A stretch of 34,376 nucleotides of DNA from Paludibacteraceae bacterium (lineage in GTDB: Bacteria; Bacteroidota; Bacteroidia; Bacteroidales; Paludibacteraceae), in NCBI GenBank assembly GCA_017517845.1, contig JAFWXW010000005.1, forward strand, positions 1 to 34,376, given 5' to 3'. Each line of letters opens with the position of its first letter. The stretch's first letter is position 1. The position numbers and the translations under genes are program-made. Below the pieces are notes generated by a model. That model saw only the letters and a program-made list of their open reading frames with translations, searched no databases and had not been told where the DNA came from. This document shows, one piece after another, positions 5,663 to 33,621 of this stretch.

Positions 5663-7542
5663 ACCAATATAGACGAAAACACCAGGATTCTCATGCTCGC
5701 CAAATAATTATAGTTTTGGTTGTACTTCTGTGTGCTCTTATATTTATAACTCGTCTGTTTTTTCTTCAGGTTTTAAATGATTCTTACAAGGATAATGCAG
5801 ATAGCAATGCCTTCTTAAAAAAGACTATTTACCCTGCTCGCGGACTTATATATGATAGAAATAATAATCTTATAGTTTCTAATCAGCCTGTTTATGATGT
5901 TATGCTCATCATGCGTGAAATGGTAGATTTTGATACATTAGGTTTTTGTAATACGCTAAATATAACCAAGGCAGAATTTGATGATAGAATTAAGGATATA
6001 AAAAATAAAAGAAAAAATCCTGGTTATTCTAGATATACTCCTCAAGTATTTATGTCGCAGATTTCCACTTCATCATACGGTCTTTTGCAAGAAAAAATGT
6101 TCCGTTTCCCTGGGGTTTTAACTCAACAACGTGTTCTTAGAAAATATTCTATGCCTCATGGAGCTCATGCACTAGGCAATGTAGGAGAAGTAAGTCAGAA
6201 ACAAATAGACGAAGATTCATATTATGTAAGAGGTGACTATAAGGGACAGTCTGGAGTGGAAAAAACATACGAAAATGAACTTCGAGGCGAAAAAGGAGTA
6301 GAAATCTTACTTCGTGATGTTCATGGACGTATTAAGGGCAAATATATGGACGGTGCCAAGGATATTAACCCTGTTTCTGGAAAGAACCTTACCATGGGAC
6401 TTGATATGGAACTCCAGAGATATGGTGAACTCCTTATGAATGGTAAGATGGGTAGCATTGTGGCAATAGAGCCTTCTACAGGTGAAATCCTAGCACTAGT
6501 ATCTAGTCCTTCATACGATCCTGCCCTTTTGGTGGGTAGAGAACGTTCTGCCAATTATGCTAGGCTACTTAAAGATAAAAAAAGACCATTATTTGACCGC
6601 CCTGTTATGGCTCAATATCCTCCTGGTTCCACATTTAAGTTGGTACAGGCTCTTATTTTTCAAGAAGAAGGAATTATAAATGCCAACACTGCATTTCCGT
6701 GTAAGAGAGGATATTATTATACAAAAACCAGAAAGATGGGTTGCCACGAACACAAATCTCCACTAGATTTAGCTGGTTCTATACAACATTCTTGCAACGC
6801 GTATTATGGTTATGCTCTACGAGACTTCCTAGATCTTAATCTAGATAAATATGGTAGCACTGATAATGCTTACAATGTGTGGAGAAATTACGTTATGTCC
6901 ATGGGATTTGGATTGCCACTAGGCATAGACTTCCCAAATGAAAAGGGTGGAACTATATATAAATCTACCACATACGATAAGATTTATGGAAAAAATCGTT
7001 GGAAATCTTCTACTATTATTTCCACCTCTATTGGTCAAGGAGAAATATTGGCTACACCAATACAAATAGCAAATCTAGCGGCTCTTATTGCTAATAAAGG
7101 TTATTTCTATACTCCTCATATTATTAAGAAAATAGAAGGTGGTGAGATAGATGAGAAATATAGGACAAAGCATGTGGTGGATATAAAGGAAAAACATTTT
7201 GATGTAGTTCAATATGGTATGGAATTAGCAGTGAAGAAAGGTACTGCTAGATTTGGACAAATAGATAGTCTGGTATTTTGTGGCAAAACAGGAACTGCTC
7301 AAAATCCACATGGTGAAGACCACTCCATTTTTATGGGATTTGCTCCCAAAGAAAATCCCCAGATAGCAATAGCAGTTTATGTGGAGAATTCTGGTTTTGG
7401 TGCCACATGGGCTGTGCCTATAGCCAGTCTTATGATAGAAAAATATCTACATGGAAGCATCTCTGCAAAGAGATTACACATAGAAAAACGTATGATGGAA
7501 AGTGTAATAGAACCTAAAGCAAAAGAAAGTGAGAAGAAATGA
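5659..7542 (+). CDS. mrdA: Penicillin-binding protein 2 (elongasome transpeptidase)
   Basis: Class B PBP that crosslinks peptidoglycan during cell elongation. I place the start at the ATG at 5659, which overlaps the mreD stop as ATGA; a GTG at 5647 in frame would add four residues. One N-terminal membrane segment (about 14-34) precedes the pedestal domain with ARGLIYDRN. The transpeptidase domain has all three motifs: SxxK as PGSTFK with Ser324, SxN as SCN (378-380), and KTG at 543-545 (KTGTAQNPHG). Length 627 fits PBP2. It works with RodA, encoded next. The C-terminal tail is charged. Confidence 0.96.
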   Translation: MNQYRRKHQDSHARQIIIVLVVLLCALIFITRLFFLQVLNDSYKDNADSNAFLKKTIYPARGLIYDRNNNLIVSNQPVYDVMLIMREMVDFDTLGFCNTLNITKAEFDDRIKDIKNKRKNPGYSRYTPQVFMSQISTSSYGLLQEKMFRFPGVLTQQRVLRKYSMPHGAHALGNVGEVSQKQIDEDSYYVRGDYKGQSGVEKTYENELRGEKGVEILLRDVHGRIKGKYMDGAKDINPVSGKNLTMGLDMELQRYGELLMNGKMGSIVAIEPSTGEILALVSSPSYDPALLVGRERSANYARLLKDKKRPLFDRPVMAQYPPGSTFKLVQALIFQEEGIINANTAFPCKRGYYYTKTRKMGCHEHKSPLDLAGSIQHSCNAYYGYALRDFLDLNLDKYGSTDNAYNVWRNYVMSMGFGLPLGIDFPNEKGGTIYKSTTYDKIYGKNRWKSSTIISTSIGQGEILATPIQIANLAALIANKGYFYTPHIIKKIEGGEIDEKYRTKHVVDIKEKHFDVVQYGMELAVKKGTARFGQIDSLVFCGKTGTAQNPHGEDHSIFMGFAPKENPQIAIAVYVENSGFGATWAVPIASLMIEKYLHGSISAKRLHIEKRMMESVIEPKAKESEKK

Positions 7543-9004
7543 GAATATATTAAAGATGTTGGACTGGTGGACTATTGGTCTTTACCTAGTATTAATTTTT
7601 ATAGGTTGGTGCACCATCTATGCTGCTTGTTATGATTATGACAATGCAGAGATTTTTAATTTTTCTGCAAATCACGGCAAACAAATCATTTGGATTTCTA
7701 CTGCACTTATATTAGGGGCTATAATTCTAACTATAGATAGTAAGTTTTATAGTAATATAGCATACTTATTTTATGTGTTGATGATAATTTTGCTTATAGC
7801 AACTATATTTCTGGCAACAGACACCAAAGGATCACATTCTTGGCTAAACTTCGGGGCATTCAAAATTCAGCCTGCTGAATTTGCCAAATATGCCACCTGC
7901 CTGTGTCTTTCTGCTTTTCTTAGTAAATCTCAGATAGACCTAAGGCGAAACAAGGACCTTATGCTAGCCATGGGTATTATTCTACTGCCTGCATTAATTA
8001 TTATTGCCCAGAGTGAAACTGGTTCTGCATTGGTCTTTTTCTCATTCTTTATCCTACTTTTTAGAGAGGGAATGAATGGAATGATATTGATTTTGGGAGT
8101 ATTTGCTATAGTTTTCTTTATTCTAGTTTTACGATACAATAATCTACCAGATGCTGTGGTTGGAGTAGATGTCCCAGAACTTCTAGGATTCATTCTAGTG
8201 TTTGCTATTGCTGTTATTACCGCATTGATTTTCTTAAGGATTTATACCAAGGACAAAACTTGTATGCTAACATTCCTAGGTATTAACATTGGCATTTATG
8301 CCGTAGGAATAATACTTGCAAACTTTATTCCTGCTGTCAAAACTTGGTATTTTGCCGCATTAAGTATTGGCGTTAGCATAATATTCCTATTTATTTGGGG
8401 AATGGTGATGCATAGACAAACCTACCTGCTTATATCTGCATTCTTGATGTTTTCCATTGCTCTTTCTGGCAGTGCCGATTATGCTTTTAATAAAATTTTG
8501 GCACCTCACCAACAGATTCGTATCAAAATAGTTTTGGGATTGGAAGACGACCCTCAAGGTGCAGGATACAATGTGAGACAATCTCAAATAGCCATAGGTT
8601 CTGGCGGTCTAACAGGTAAGGGATATTTAAATGGAACACAAACCAAACTAAATTATGTTCCAGAGCAAGATACCGACTTTATTTTTTGTACCATTGCAGA
8701 GGAATGGGGATTTATAGGCTCTACACTATTTATCATTATTTATGCCACATTGATGCTTAGACTCATCTTTTTGGCAGAAAGACAGAGGTCTGCATTCTCT
8801 CGCATTTATGGGTATGGAATACTCTGTATTTTCCTATTCCACTTCTTTATAAATCTAGGAATGGTTACTGGCATCACCCCTGTAATCGGTATTCCTCTAC
8901 CTCTTATTAGCTATGGTGGTTCCTCTCTTTGGGGATTCACTTTGCTACTATTTACTTTCATTCGTCTAGACGCCAACAGAATGGAAGTGCTACAAGCTAG
9001 ATAG
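7529..9004 (+). CDS. rodA: Peptidoglycan polymerase RodA (SEDS family)
   Basis: SEDS glycosyltransferase that polymerises lipid II and acts with PBP2. The protein has about ten membrane segments. The conserved IPLPLISYGGSSL motif near the C-terminus and DTDFIFCTIAEEWGF are intact. The start is either GTG at 7529, giving MRRNENILKMLDWW and overlapping mrdA by 14 bp, or ATG at 7556. I prefer the GTG because RodA proteins of related bacteria carry a short charged stretch before LDWW. Length 491 is slightly long for RodA but normal in Bacteroidetes. Last gene of the operon; a hairpin with a T-rich tail follows. Confidence 0.94.
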   Translation: MRRNENILKMLDWWTIGLYLVLIFIGWCTIYAACYDYDNAEIFNFSANHGKQIIWISTALILGAIILTIDSKFYSNIAYLFYVLMIILLIATIFLATDTKGSHSWLNFGAFKIQPAEFAKYATCLCLSAFLSKSQIDLRRNKDLMLAMGIILLPALIIIAQSETGSALVFFSFFILLFREGMNGMILILGVFAIVFFILVLRYNNLPDAVVGVDVPELLGFILVFAIAVITALIFLRIYTKDKTCMLTFLGINIGIYAVGIILANFIPAVKTWYFAALSIGVSIIFLFIWGMVMHRQTYLLISAFLMFSIALSGSADYAFNKILAPHQQIRIKIVLGLEDDPQGAGYNVRQSQIAIGSGGLTGKGYLNGTQTKLNYVPEQDTDFIFCTIAEEWGFIGSTLFIIIYATLMLRLIFLAERQRSAFSRIYGYGILCIFLFHFFINLGMVTGITPVIGIPLPLISYGGSSLWGFTLLLFTFIRLDANRMEVLQAR

Positions 9005-9013
9005 TTAGAAGTT

Positions 9014-9046
9014 AAACTCGCATCGCGAGTTTGTCTTTTGTTATTT
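9014..9046 (+). terminator. Terminator after rodA
   Basis: AAACTCGC (9014-9021) and GCGAGTTT (9025-9032) form an 8-bp perfect hairpin with loop ATC, followed by a T-rich stretch. It lies 9 bp after the rodA stop and probably ends the purH-mre-rodA transcript. Confidence 0.75.
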
Positions 9047-9056
9047 TTAATGATTA

Positions 9057-9115
9057 TTGGCTGCACTCGGGATAACACAAGCAAGCTTGGTTCTCCTCTC
9101 GTTTGCACAATAATT
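9057..9115 (+). repeat. Dispersed intergenic repeat, copy B
   Basis: Begins TTGGCTGCACTCGG and ends GTTTGCACAATAATT. The central palindrome is CAAGC-AA-GCTTG (9078-9089). Compared with copy A the palindrome sequence changes on both sides together, so pairing is kept. Confidence 0.7.
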
Positions 9116-9192
9116 GTAGGCAGGTGTCAGAGCGTAGCGGCGACGCCTGTGTATAGGAATTACACCCCAACCTCCACGCCCGTAGGGTGTGT
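9116..9192 (+). repeat. REP-like palindrome R1
   Basis: GTAG tetranucleotide (9116-9119), then stem CAGGTGTC (9121-9128) with GACGCCTG (9142-9149), including one G-T pair. A second hairpin follows, ACACCC (9162-9167) with GGGTGT (9185-9190), inside a weaker ATAGGAA/TTCCTAT stem (9153-9199). The whole unit is homologous to R3, which lies inverted beyond the transposase. GTAG plus an imperfect palindrome is the layout recognised by RAYT transposases. Confidence 0.75.
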
Positions 9193-9202
9193 TTCCTATG
9201 TT

Positions 9203-9250
9203 GTAGGCAGGTGTTAAAGGAGCGTAGCGACTGCAACGCCTGTAGAATTG
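9203..9250 (+). repeat. REP-like palindrome R2
   Basis: Second direct copy: GTAG (9203-9206), stem CAGGTGTT (9208-9215) with AACGCCTG (9235-9242), and the loop motif GAGCGTAGCG. Relative to R1, the last stem pair changes from C-G to T-A, a compensatory change. The sequence after 9243 is only weakly like the second hairpin of R1. Confidence 0.7.
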
Positions 9251-9285
9251 GATACAACCAAACCCTCCTCTACCCCAAAACCATT

Positions 9286-9427
9286 GGGATTTTTAATGTG
9301 GGCGGTGCGCATTGCGGAGCAATGCAGACCACTAGTTAATCGTATACTATATAAACAAACCTGTCAACCCCATACTAGTGGTCTAAGTCGCCTTTCCTGC
9401 GACTGCACCGCCCACATTAAAAATCCC
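9286..9427. other. Perfect DNA/RNA cloverleaf element
   Basis: A 23-bp perfect inverted repeat (9286-9308 with 9405-9427) encloses three perfect hairpins placed end to end. H1 is GCATTGC-GGA-GCAATGC (9309-9325). H2 is AGACCACTAGT (9326-9336) with ACTAGTGGTCT (9374-9384) and a 37-nt loop. H3 is AGTCGC (9386-9391) with GCGACT (9399-9404). Only A9385 is unpaired at the four-way junction; 94 of 142 bases are Watson-Crick paired with no mismatch. No target duplication or convincing ORF is visible. It belongs to no family I recognise; its position among REP palindromes and next to an HUH transposase suggests a non-autonomous mobile or single-strand-folded element. Confidence 0.85.
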
Positions 9428-9482
9428 CTTGAAATATCATAGAATTTACAATATTAACGTAACAACATATTAAAATAATTAA

Positions 9483-9490
9483 TATCTTTG
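9483..9490 (+). promoter_or_regulatory. Orphan -7 promoter box
   Basis: TATCTTTG, an exact TAnnTTTG match, sits between ACAACAT (9462-9468) and ATGTTGT (9493-9499). It probably drove the gene whose 3' remnant lies at 9638-9805, or drives a structured transcript from 9521-9637. Confidence 0.45.
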
Positions 9491-9520
9491 TGATGTTGTA
9501 CATTTTGTACACATAACTTA

Positions 9521-9637
9521 TTTTGCTCAATCGCTCTCGAATCACCACCTCGAACTAGATACGAGCAAAAGAATACACTATTGAGTTTGTGCCTAATAGG
9601 GCGCAGACTTAGTCATTGTGTATTCGGCTTGTGGTGA
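9521..9637 (+). other. Structured region of unknown nature
   Basis: TTTTGCTC (9521-9528) pairs with GAGCAAAA (9563-9570). AATACAC (9572-9578) pairs with GTGTATT (9618-9624) around an inner stem 9584-9593/9600-9609 that has two G-T pairs. TCACCAC (9542-9548) can instead pair with GTGGTGA (9631-9637). There is no convincing ORF here. It lies between a promoter box and a coding remnant. Confidence 0.4.
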
Positions 9638-9805
9638 GCTGGAATTTCTACTATTGCTGTCGGTATACCTTTAGTATGTGTTGGAAAATCTCAAAAAAGA
9701 AAGAGTTATGAAACTTTCAATAACACTTCTGGAGGATATATATCTTCTTCAGAATTACAATTCAAAATAAACAACGATGGTGTAGGATTAGCTTTAATGT
9801 TCTAA
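9638..9805 (+). pseudogene. 3' remnant of a small Bacteroidetes membrane protein gene
   Basis: In frame from 9638 to a TAA at 9803-9805 there are 55 codons reading AGISTIAVGIPLVCVGKS, then a charged segment, then a C-terminus ending INNDGVGLALMF. A hydrophobic stretch, a short basic turn and a final strand ending in an aromatic residue resemble the end of a common uncharacterised Bacteroidetes envelope protein family, as I remember it. An in-frame TGA (9635-9637) and no start codon precede it, so it is 5' truncated. Its stop overlaps the opposing transposase stop. No function is claimed. Confidence 0.5.
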
Positions 9806-10236
9806 ATATAAATATCCCCATAACCGAATTTGGATAGGATATTTCTATATTCATCAGCAAAGGACACCTTTTTATGGTGTTCTTTTTGTTTTTTGATGTA
9901 TTGGAAGACATTATCAATATGTGATTTTGTATATGAGAAAGCACCATAGCCTTCTTGCCACGAAAAATCCTTGTTAAAATTATTCTTAATAAATTTAGAA
10001 GAGAATTGTTTGATGCAGAGCATTAGTTTGGCAGGCGATTCTGAGTTATCCATTGAGACGAATATATGGACGTGGTCTTTTGTGCCGTTTATTATTAATG
10101 TTTTGTTTTTGCGGTTATCTATAGATGTGGTGATGTATTGATATAGTCTTTGCTCCCATTCTGGTTTAATTAGGGGCATTCTATTTTTAACGGAAATAAT
10201 GAAATGAACGTAAATTTGATTATAGGTGTTTGCCAT
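9802..10236 (-). mobile_element. HUH/Y1 transposase, REP-associated (RAYT/IS200-like)
   Basis: Single-strand DNA transposase of the Y1 class. The 144 residues show the HUH metal site as His55-Val-His57 (KDHVHIFVSM) and the catalytic tyrosine helix YIKKQ, with Tyr113 and Gln117 spaced as in IS608 TnpA (Tyr127, Gln131). FSWQEGYGAFSY is a strong signature of short Bacteroidetes REP-associated transposases. The reading frame looks intact. No TnpB accompanies it. REP-like palindromes flank it: R3 inverted about 70 bp upstream of its start, R1 and R2 beyond its 3' end. This favours a RAYT over an autonomous IS200, although an IS200 with decayed ends is possible. Confidence 0.88.
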
Positions 10237-10273
10237 ATTGATTAAGAATTTGTGGTTAATAATTAATTTTATG

Positions 10274-10304
10274 CAAATGTAATGTTTTTATTTTATTTGA
10301 ACAA
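10274..10304 (-). promoter_or_regulatory. Putative transposase promoter
   Basis: On the minus strand TACATTTG (10281 to 10274) fits the -7 consensus, with a TTG at 10304-10302, 20 bp upstream. The -33 element abuts repeat R3, so binding to R3 could affect transcription. Confidence 0.5.
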
Positions 10305-10309
10305 GACCC

Positions 10310-10386
10310 ACACCCTACGGGCGTGGTATGCGTAGGGTTAATATTCCCAAACACAGGCGTTATCGCTACGCTCAACACCTGCCTAC
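10310..10386 (-). repeat. REP-like palindrome R3 (inverted)
   Basis: Read on the minus strand from 10386: GTAG, stem CAGGTGTT with AACGCCTG (10381-10374 with 10361-10354), loop motif GAGCGTAGCG, then a perfect 8-bp second hairpin ACCCTACG/CGTAGGGT (10338-10331 with 10319-10312). It is homologous to R1 over almost its whole length, including the ACGCCCGTAGGGTGTG end. Confidence 0.75.
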
Positions 10387-10398
10387 AATTTAAGATTA

Positions 10399-10442
10399 AC
10401 CCCCGATGGGGGTCACATCAAATTCATCCTCCAGTATCGGGG
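10399..10442. repeat. Competing palindromes downstream of polyprenyl synthase
   Basis: ACCCCC-GAT-GGGGGT (10399-10413) is a perfect 6-bp hairpin. CCCCGAT (10401-10407) can instead pair with ATCGGGG (10436-10442). It lies just beyond the minus-strand gene stop but lacks a T-run, so terminator function is unsure. Confidence 0.45.
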
Positions 10443-10458
10443 AACTAAATTATCTGTA

Positions 10459-11421
10459 TTATTTCTTTCTACTTAGTAGGTATTCAATATACAACTCCAA
10501 GGAATCTTTGATTGGGGAAGCTGGGAATTCTTCTAGGATTTTGATGGCTTTGGAATAATATCTACCTAGAATCATATTGGCATATTCTATACCGCCATTT
10601 TCATTTACTATCTGAATTATCTTATCGACATTTTTTTCTAGAATGCATTCTGAGATATACTTTCTTTCTTCTTCTGAGGCATGATTGTATGAATATAAAA
10701 GAGGTAGGGTAATCTTTCCTTCTTGAATATCATTACCATAAGGTTTTCCTGTCTCATTATCTGGTTGTAGGTCTAATAAGTCATCTTTTATCTGAAAACA
10801 TATACCTATGTATTCTCCCAACTTGGTAAGTTTTTCTACATTTTCTGATGTTTGGTTTGCTGCGGAAATAGCCCCCAATTTGGAAGATGCAGAAAATAAT
10901 GCTGCAGTTTTACACTTGATAATAGAGAAATAATTTTCTTCTTTGAAACTAGGATTTCTACTTTCTGTAAGTTGGAGCATCTCGCCTTCTATAAGTATTT
11001 TACCTAGATTTGATATGGTCTCTACTACTCCTAAGGTTTGTGAGGCTACTGCTTCACATAGTGCTGTAGATAAAAAGAAATCACCACCTAGAACTGCTGC
11101 TTTATTTTCAAACGCTGCCATCACAGATGGTAAACCTCTACGTTCTGCAGAATTATCTACCACATCATCATGAATTAGACTTGCCACATGAAGTAATTCT
11201 AACGCAACTGCAGATCTTATAGTCTTTTCTGTTACTCCCCCACACAACTGTGCCGAAAGAAACACCAATATAGGACGCATCATTTTTCCAGAACTCTTGG
11301 TAACATGTGCTACTATTTCTTGCAGTAATGGATTTGAGCTATGAAGTGACTGTCTATAAGCAATCTTAAATCTGTGTAAGTCTTCTGCTACTGGTAATGA
11401 TATCTTTTCTAAAGTAGTCAT
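10459..11421 (-). CDS. Long-chain polyprenyl diphosphate synthase
   Basis: Extends a short allylic diphosphate with IPP units, probably to the side chain of menaquinone (IspB-like). I start at the ATG at 11421 (320 residues); an in-frame TTG at 11445 precedes a likely promoter box and is less credible. The first aspartate-rich motif is DDVVD (85-89) and the second DDLLD (213-217). The residue five before the first motif is Ala80. In this family a small residue there permits long products. The second synthase in this window (20061-21041) has Phe there. It is divergent from the glycosyltransferase cluster and faces the repeat island at its 3' end. Confidence 0.9.
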   Translation of the reverse strand: MTTLEKISLPVAEDLHRFKIAYRQSLHSSNPLLQEIVAHVTKSSGKMMRPILVFLSAQLCGGVTEKTIRSAVALELLHVASLIHDDVVDNSAERRGLPSVMAAFENKAAVLGGDFFLSTALCEAVASQTLGVVETISNLGKILIEGEMLQLTESRNPSFKEENYFSIIKCKTAALFSASSKLGAISAANQTSENVEKLTKLGEYIGICFQIKDDLLDLQPDNETGKPYGNDIQEGKITLPLLYSYNHASEEERKYISECILEKNVDKIIQIVNENGGIEYANMILGRYYSKAIKILEEFPASPIKDSLELYIEYLLSRKK

Positions 11422-33521: not shown

Positions 33522-33539
33522 CAATTGCCTTTTTTAAAG

Positions 33540-33621
33540 TGCGGCTGAAGGGACTCGAACCCCCACGCCTCTCGGCACCAGATCCTAAGTCTGGCGCGGC
33601 TACCAATTACGCCACAGCCGC
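33540..33621 (-). tRNA. trnL: tRNA-Leu, anticodon UAG
   Basis: Minus-strand class II tRNA of 82 nt. Acceptor GCGGCTG pairs with CAGCCGC. Anticodon stem CCAGA/TCTGG encloses CTTAGGA, so the anticodon is UAG (reads CUN leucine codons). A long variable arm and the GTTCGAGTC T-loop are present. CCA is not encoded. Confidence 0.96.

Follow-up and report, generated by a model that had tools for sequence, protein, structure and literature searches.

A perfectly paired cloverleaf DNA element beside a subclass-1.2 Y1 transposase, probably part of a selfish-repeat system, in a Paludibacteraceae bacterium

In the IS200/IS605 family, hairpins serve as single-strand recognition sites. Published GTAG REPs carry GTAG at the foot of a 20–40-bp palindrome. 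TnpA subclass 1.2 is characterized in excerpts of PMC6006769 by the motifs Y---Q--HH, DH[IV]H and WQ and a length of about 148 aa, and is described there as occurring mostly in Cyanobacteria and Bacteroidetes, at low copy number and generally without typical terminal IS200 structures. Among open-licence PMC texts we found no paper linking this subclass to repeats of the kind reported below, and no substrate suggested for it; our survey offers a candidate. The REPtron kind of system is itself already known, and what appears new here is the presence of such repeats at subclass 1.2.

The window, by which we mean the whole stretch of DNA analyzed, comprises 34,376 bases of a Paludibacteraceae bacterium (contig JAFWXW010000005.1, assembly GCA_017517845.1). 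A preliminary description had proposed a cloverleaf with a 23-bp closing stem, three hairpins of 7, 11 and 6 bp and one junction base, and all of these parts are present (Table 1), base 9385 being the single unpaired junction residue. All 47 pairs are Watson-Crick, so that 94 of the 142 bases are paired with neither mismatch nor wobble, as had been stated. Folded as DNA, the element reaches -48.1 kcal/mol, compared with a shuffle mean of -13.9 (sd 2.7; z = -12.6), and none of 200 shuffles folds as well, in keeping with the earlier view that such a fold lies beyond chance. No other perfect inverted repeat with a span of 40–260 bases is as long as the closing stem, either in the window or in 356,428 bases sampled from its genome, the runner-up having 22 bp, and the element is the only site in the window found by either of the two cloverleaf detectors introduced below.

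Table 1. Coordinates of the cloverleaf, its neighboring repeats and the transposase gene in the window.
Feature	Position	Strand	Remark
GTAG-tagged REP	9116..9149	+	1 of 17 in assembly by exact pattern
CACGCCCGTAGGGTGTG-type hairpin, one G-T pair	9174..9191	+	perfect inverse of 10309-10326
Second GTAG REP	9203..9242	+	43 nt upstream of cloverleaf
Cloverleaf element, copy 1	9286..9427	.	142 bases
Closing stem, 5' arm	9286..9308	.	23 bp, perfect
Arm 1	9309..9325	.	7-bp hairpin, GGA triloop
Arm 2	9326..9384	.	11-bp stem, 37-nt AT-rich loop at 9337-9373
Arm 3	9386..9404	.	6-bp hairpin, 7-nt loop
Closing stem, 3' arm	9405..9427	.	pairs with 9286..9308
Y1 HUH transposase, 144 aa	9802..10236	-	Y1_Tnp / IS200 family; NCBIfam: IS200/IS605 family transposase
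Partner hairpin, inverse of 9174-9191	10309..10326	-	upstream of transposase
Inverted GTAG REP	10354..10386	-	far side of transposase

Other structured stretches were seen in the same genome. Between the cloverleaf and the transposase, at 9520–9655, an 8-bp stem encloses a hairpin with wobble pairing, and none of 200 shuffles equals the DNA fold of this stretch (z -3.3; z -2.2 for the whole of 9428–9801), which is possibly a decayed relative. A 19-bp perfect inverted repeat spanning 114 bases (L245:9629-9742) is not scored as a cloverleaf by the detectors. Elsewhere (L241:6129-6272), two inverted 22-nt copies containing ATTGTTCCACGTGGAACAAT stand 100 bases apart and presumably resemble parS sites.

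Three identities were considered for the cloverleaf and rejected. The best miRNA-family match is sub-threshold (26.2 bits against 211, E 0.029), the sole tRNA found is a tRNA-Leu at 33539–33621, and the boxes of integron attC sites were not seen by eye. A promoter-like match lies inside the element at 9339–9367, such matches being in no excess (6 vs 5.6 in shuffles), and a simple terminator scan touched only its left edge, at 9274–9288.

A second copy is present in the same assembly (G000:C2:15646-15788, equivalent to L007:2647-2789) and is 87% identical over the full length. Stem columns changed at 4 of 94 positions and unpaired columns at 14 of 49, one of these a gap (Fisher p = 7e-5), with most of the differences falling in the loop of arm 2. 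All four stem changes break a pair in copy 2, which retains 43 of the 47 pairs, and none is compensatory. Since stems were conserved while loops diverged, pairing appears to have been maintained over much of the copies' separate history; this speaks for a functional fold, short of the proof that covariation would give. The absence of decay noted in the preliminary description thus holds for copy 1 and not for copy 2, where 4 of 47 pairs are lost, and the recent mobility it suggested is not supported, the copies being just 87% identical with well-diverged loops. Its inference of a mobile substrate or a structured RNA is borne out in part: the element is repeated and its stems are conserved, and a structured RNA gained no positive support, compensatory change being absent.

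Searching relatives with the 142 bp and a covariance model, which the preliminary description had proposed, returned the second copy in the element's own genome and none in others. By blastn, none of the 199 other family genomes, 15 of them congeners, gave a match, and the covariance model, run on 150 genomes, matched only in the window's own. A palindromic core pattern gave 14 stretches in the genome_contigs species-genome collection, none cloverleaf-like once folded, and 0 matches in viral contigs; such exact-pattern scans miss variants, and records of the window's own genome may be left out of them. Plasmids yielded no cloverleaf, and phages just 4 records with a 24-base match at E 0.4. The exact cloverleaf is therefore a matter of two copies in one genome. 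This distribution bears on the idea that a host protein (gyrase, a nucleoid or a replication protein) recognizes the element as a cruciform, with no role in transposition. According to excerpts of PMC6006769, IHF, DNA polymerase I and gyrase have been described as binding REPs, and the pairing is conserved in both copies; two copies, with none in the 199 other family genomes, are unlike a host function, and we regard this explanation as very improbable.

Copy 1 lies between convergent reading frames, a RodA-like one by eye at 7529–9004 (+) and that of the Y1 transposase. Copy 2 lies between same-direction frames of 549 aa (AMP-ligase-like by eye) and 82 aa, with no transposase found in the 5.5-kb stretch around it; a small gene group with DUF3990 and DUF3791 domains (L007:2843-3799) adjoins this copy and the 82-aa frame. 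The convergent setting of copy 1 would suit a structured RNA or 3'-end element (an mRNA stabilizer, attenuator or terminator-like structure) between the frames at 7529–9004 and 9802–10236, as would the excess of terminator-like hairpins in 8990–10460 (8 vs a shuffle mean of 1.1) and the report, in excerpts of PMC3733652, that REPs occur mostly downstream of genes. Only one of those 8 matches touches the cloverleaf, however, and copy 2 is not in a convergent place. No Rfam family attains its gathering score, in line with the original statement that no family was recognized, which leaves only the lone sub-threshold miRNA match, while the four stem changes each break a pair rather than compensate. 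Such an RNA role seems quite unlikely to us.

REPs and hairpins form arrays inverted around the transposase gene, the two REPs on one side facing the one on the other (Table 1). The cloverleaf itself is no GTAG REP, having the foot CCATY|GGGATT and a length of 142, whereas the neighboring REPs do have GTAG. Both copies follow the same form of REP, GTAGGCAGGTGT...ACGCCTG, from which they are separated by 43 nt (copy 1) and 26 nt (copy 2). This pattern has 17 exact matches in the 1.68-Mb assembly, and by eye it is followed by a CCCGTAGGG-like hairpin (variants included) in 14 cases, by the cloverleaf in 2 and by another hairpin in 1. In both copies the cloverleaf thus fills the second-hairpin slot of this genome's REP arrays. 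By eye, the small hairpins of the window's arrays have the CCCTACGGG core of the relatives' elements, here with a G-T pair.

At 17 places in this genome (L028-L044), small hairpins form mosaic arrays that recur in similar order by eye, composed of a AACCCGCAAGCGGGTT type, a GTAG REP with a very variable inner hairpin, a CCCGTAGGG type and a GAGCGAAGCGAG type. Some of them contain GCGNAGC, an unusually stable DNA mini-hairpin.

A long and perfect terminal inverted repeat, two dispersed copies and the lack of a motif in common with the elements of other genomes would also be expected of an unrelated MITE-like palindrome, with 23-bp terminal inverted repeats, that belongs to another transposon and landed in the REP arrays, its nearness to the transposase being accidental. 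Neither a target-site duplication nor an autonomous partner with the same ends was seen for the cloverleaf. No duplication is seen at either copy, as had already been claimed for the first, the flanks common to both being just CCATY before and CT after, and the ends, allowing ≤3 mismatches, occur nowhere outside the two copies in an assembly that is 81% complete. Moreover, both copies occupy the same slot after a REP, and the inner stems are no less conserved than the terminal ones. We consider a MITE-like origin unlikely.

The gene next to copy 1 encodes a protein with the motifs DHVH, WQ and YIKKQKEHH, the last being the Y---Q--HH signature of TnpA subclass 1.2. Signature and size, low copy number and flanks made of REP and hairpin arrays place it in this subclass, and at E ≤ 0.001 it is the one transposase match in the assembly (81% complete). 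H55, H57 and W93 are invariant in 129 proteins picked by the Y---Q--HH motif, and the window protein has all three; its HUH, Y and Q residues are intact. The nearest relatives among the matches listed are 54% identical to it. A single-sequence search of solved structures gave no match at E 0.001, and there were no relatives in phages and none confirmed in viral contigs. Plasmids supplied two records at 40–41% identity, both from Cytophagales, and the detector found no closing-stem-plus-hairpins element at either locus (L185 and L186). At one locus (L156, G055:C37:12424-13475), the transposase has two adjacent relatives in one orientation, alike in score and identity.

We surveyed the flanks of related transposase genes. 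With the window's genome included, matches were present in 192 of 393 genomes of the order at E ≤ 1e-15 and in 103 of 358 genomes of the family at E ≤ 1e-10. Set 1 consisted of 30 loci, 29 from the order search plus one congener, and it was here that elements with pairing ends (a closing stem) and a hairpin directly inside each end were first seen. The first detector, which requires a perfect closing stem of ≥9 bp, found 17 elements in 9 of these 30 loci, compared with 5 AT-rich ones in 3 of 30 control stretches (439,620 bases); shuffles gave 0, 0, 0, 0 and 0 for the loci and 2, 2, 3, 1 and 0 for the controls. In set 2, it found 8 near the transposase (7 of 40 loci, 105,255 bases) vs 2 far from it (350,639 bases), and in the window's genome 5 AT-rich elements in 356,428 bases.

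The second detector requires hairpins with stems of ≥5 bp, ≥40% G+C and loops of 3–7, and a closing stem of 12 bp with ≤2 mismatches that lies ≤4 nt from both hairpins; elements within 1.5 kb of the transposase were counted as near. It was written after the first detector's results, so only the family and weak-hit sets (29 and 40 loci) are fully held out. With loops limited to 6 it had missed the window cloverleaf, and the limit was therefore set to 7. The cloverleaf conforms to the element plan with the limit so widened; the counts for sets 1 and 2, 24 and 17, were unchanged by this. Set 1, which suggested the detector, has its 24 elements in 14 of 30 loci, and set 2 its 17 in 12 of 40 loci, all within 1.5 kb. 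The held-out sets gave 19 elements in 12 of 29 loci (family) and 13 in 8 of 40 (weak hits). Over the four sets, 46 of 139 loci have elements, 73 in all, with lengths of 76–252 nt (median 126), and the flanks scanned amount to about 382 kb; at least one of the elements counted, at L168, looks like a low-complexity chance match, and the loci share phylogeny, some genomes supplying several. The background amounts to 2 elements in about 1.15 Mb: 0 in the control stretches, which come from the 30 genomes of set 1 and total 439,620 bases, 1 in the 350,639 bases of set-2 loci beyond 1.5 kb and 1 in the 356,428 bases from the window's genome. Shuffles gave 0, 0, 0, 1 and 0 elements for set 1, 0 and 0 for set 2 and five zeros for the family set.

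The Y---Q--HH motif is present at 130 of the 139 loci, and 43 of these 130 have an element; as 39 of the 40 weak-hit loci also carry the subclass-1.2 motif, the comparison spans almost solely this subclass. No element was found by the second detector in 93 of the 139 loci. Elements are distributed over the transposase tree much as in shuffles, with 34 changes against an average of 35.1, and 75 of 200 shuffles need no more. That 46 of 139 loci carry elements speaks against subclass 1.2 being generally without DNA structures. It also gives breadth to the earlier remark that the cloverleaf's neighbors are REP palindromes and an HUH transposase: the REPs are in place, the transposase is intact, and those 46 loci of relatives are flanked by elements of the same plan.

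Besides this plan, namely a closing stem with a hairpin immediately within either end and a middle part separating the two hairpins, the relatives' elements have recurrent sequence features. The tags that pair into the closing stem contain CTAY in 103 of 146 cases, compared with 8.1% of random 17-mers from the same loci, and TTCTA in 68 of 146, compared with 0.9% of random 17-mers. CCTACGG (47 of 146) and CCTAACGG (24 of 146) are the commonest hairpin apices. Perfect CCTACGG-type hairpins of ≥6 bp number 80 in the 381,675 bases near transposases (27 of 139 loci) and 4 in the 351,541 bases farther away, with 0 in the control stretches, 0 in the window and 0 in the 356,428 sampled bases of its genome, whose own hairpins of the CCTACGG kind carry a G-T pair. 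The closing stem of the window cloverleaf lacks a CTAY tag, and a CCTACGG-like hairpin core is likewise absent. A REPIN/BIME-like inverted dimer would have two related tagged hairpins in inverse orientation; the closing stem of the cloverleaf amounts to inverted tags, but its arms 1 and 3 do not resemble one another, whereas in many relatives both hairpins are alike by eye. As the cloverleaf is without the class motifs, we do not claim its membership in the relatives' element class by sequence; its assignment to the system rests on plan, address and shared arrays.

Two relatives illustrate how such elements are spread. In genome G369, the copies of one element, three full and one partial, all lie within 1.5 kb of the transposase. 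In genome G199, an element has at least 43 matches (40 of 58 candidates scored), and 36 of the 43 matches listed are confined to its first 47 bases, that is, tag plus hairpin, and are dispersed over the genome. The three near-full single matches listed all lie beside the transposase on its contig, and one further place (C239:381-545) matches the element in two pieces. Among six dispersed places inspected, none holds a closed element and four hold two tags facing each other. By analogy, the pattern in the two genomes resembles REP monomers and BIME/REPIN dimers around RAYT genes.

The four places with facing tags (L195, L196, L198 and L199) are modules of about 150 bp with hairpins outside and TTCTAT-type tags pointing inward, the reverse layout of the closed elements.

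Because the cloverleaf has two copies and similar folded repeats lie beside about a third of the relatives examined, it is probably part of a selfish-repeat system and not a lone curiosity. Our best explanation, to which we would give an even chance, is that it is a DNA-structure module of a REP/BIME-like system belonging to the adjacent single subclass-1.2 Y1 transposase. Against it stand the lack of a transposase near copy 2, the missing class motifs and the 93 of 139 loci with no element. If it holds, single-strandedness of the locus, as lagging-strand template, would let the inverted tags pair up as the closing stem and present the hairpins to the transposase. The enzyme might then bind hairpin plus foot and nick at the foot, and the nicked unit could spread as a non-autonomous passenger, as is thought for TnpA-REP with REP/BIME. 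Folding, nicking and passenger spread are modeled here on TnpA-REP and IS200/IS605 biology (excerpts of PMC8266576 and PMC6006769, and general knowledge).

More tentatively, subclass-1.2 Y1 transposases could form a separate REPtron-like system with multi-branched substrates made of a closing stem and hairpin arms, of which the cloverleaf would be an extreme, fully closed three-arm form, recognized whole in its folded state and not hairpin by hairpin; we hold this to be possible rather than probable. The candidate substrate that the survey offers has the CTAY tag, the CCTACGG-like hairpin and the inverted pair as its recurrent features. Recognition of the branched fold would widen the DNA shapes read by Y1 enzymes from single hairpins to multi-way junctions, and would account for some of the palindromes that clutter intergenic DNA in these bacteria.

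Among described systems, REP/BIME/REPIN sequences with TnpA-REP (RAYT), the REPtrons, come closest. According to excerpts of PMC3733652, PMC6006769 and PMC8266576, these are short palindromes, often in inverted pairs, that flank a Y1 HUH gene, with monomers dispersed in the genome and a tag at the hairpin foot. The window transposase differs from them in its subclass-1.2 signature, RAYT being assigned in the excerpted literature to subclass 2.x. The relatives' tag differs as well: it is a longer arm, often with TTCTA, and forms the closing stem by pairing with its inverse. The window element is set apart by its 142 nt, three arms and 23 closing pairs. Likeness to IS200/IS605 (TnpA-IS200, subclass 1.1) lies in the NCBIfam naming of the window protein; the gene, in contrast, is flanked by inverted REP/hairpin arrays, not by IS ends. 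TIRtrons with TIRYT, as excerpted from PMC3733652, also have Y1 genes flanked by long inverted repeats, some self-complementary and some dimers, but their proteins are related to RAYT, and GGGGWSAS is common to several of their repeats. The 'atypical secondary structures' of TnpA subclass 2.6 in Bacteroidetes and of class 3 are likewise unusual non-GTAG structures that flank Y1 genes and have copies elsewhere (excerpts of PMC6006769, whose main text does not use the word cloverleaf). The Y motif of subclass 2.6 is, however, YIH[QN]NP, and the atypical structures are called weaker in the same excerpts.
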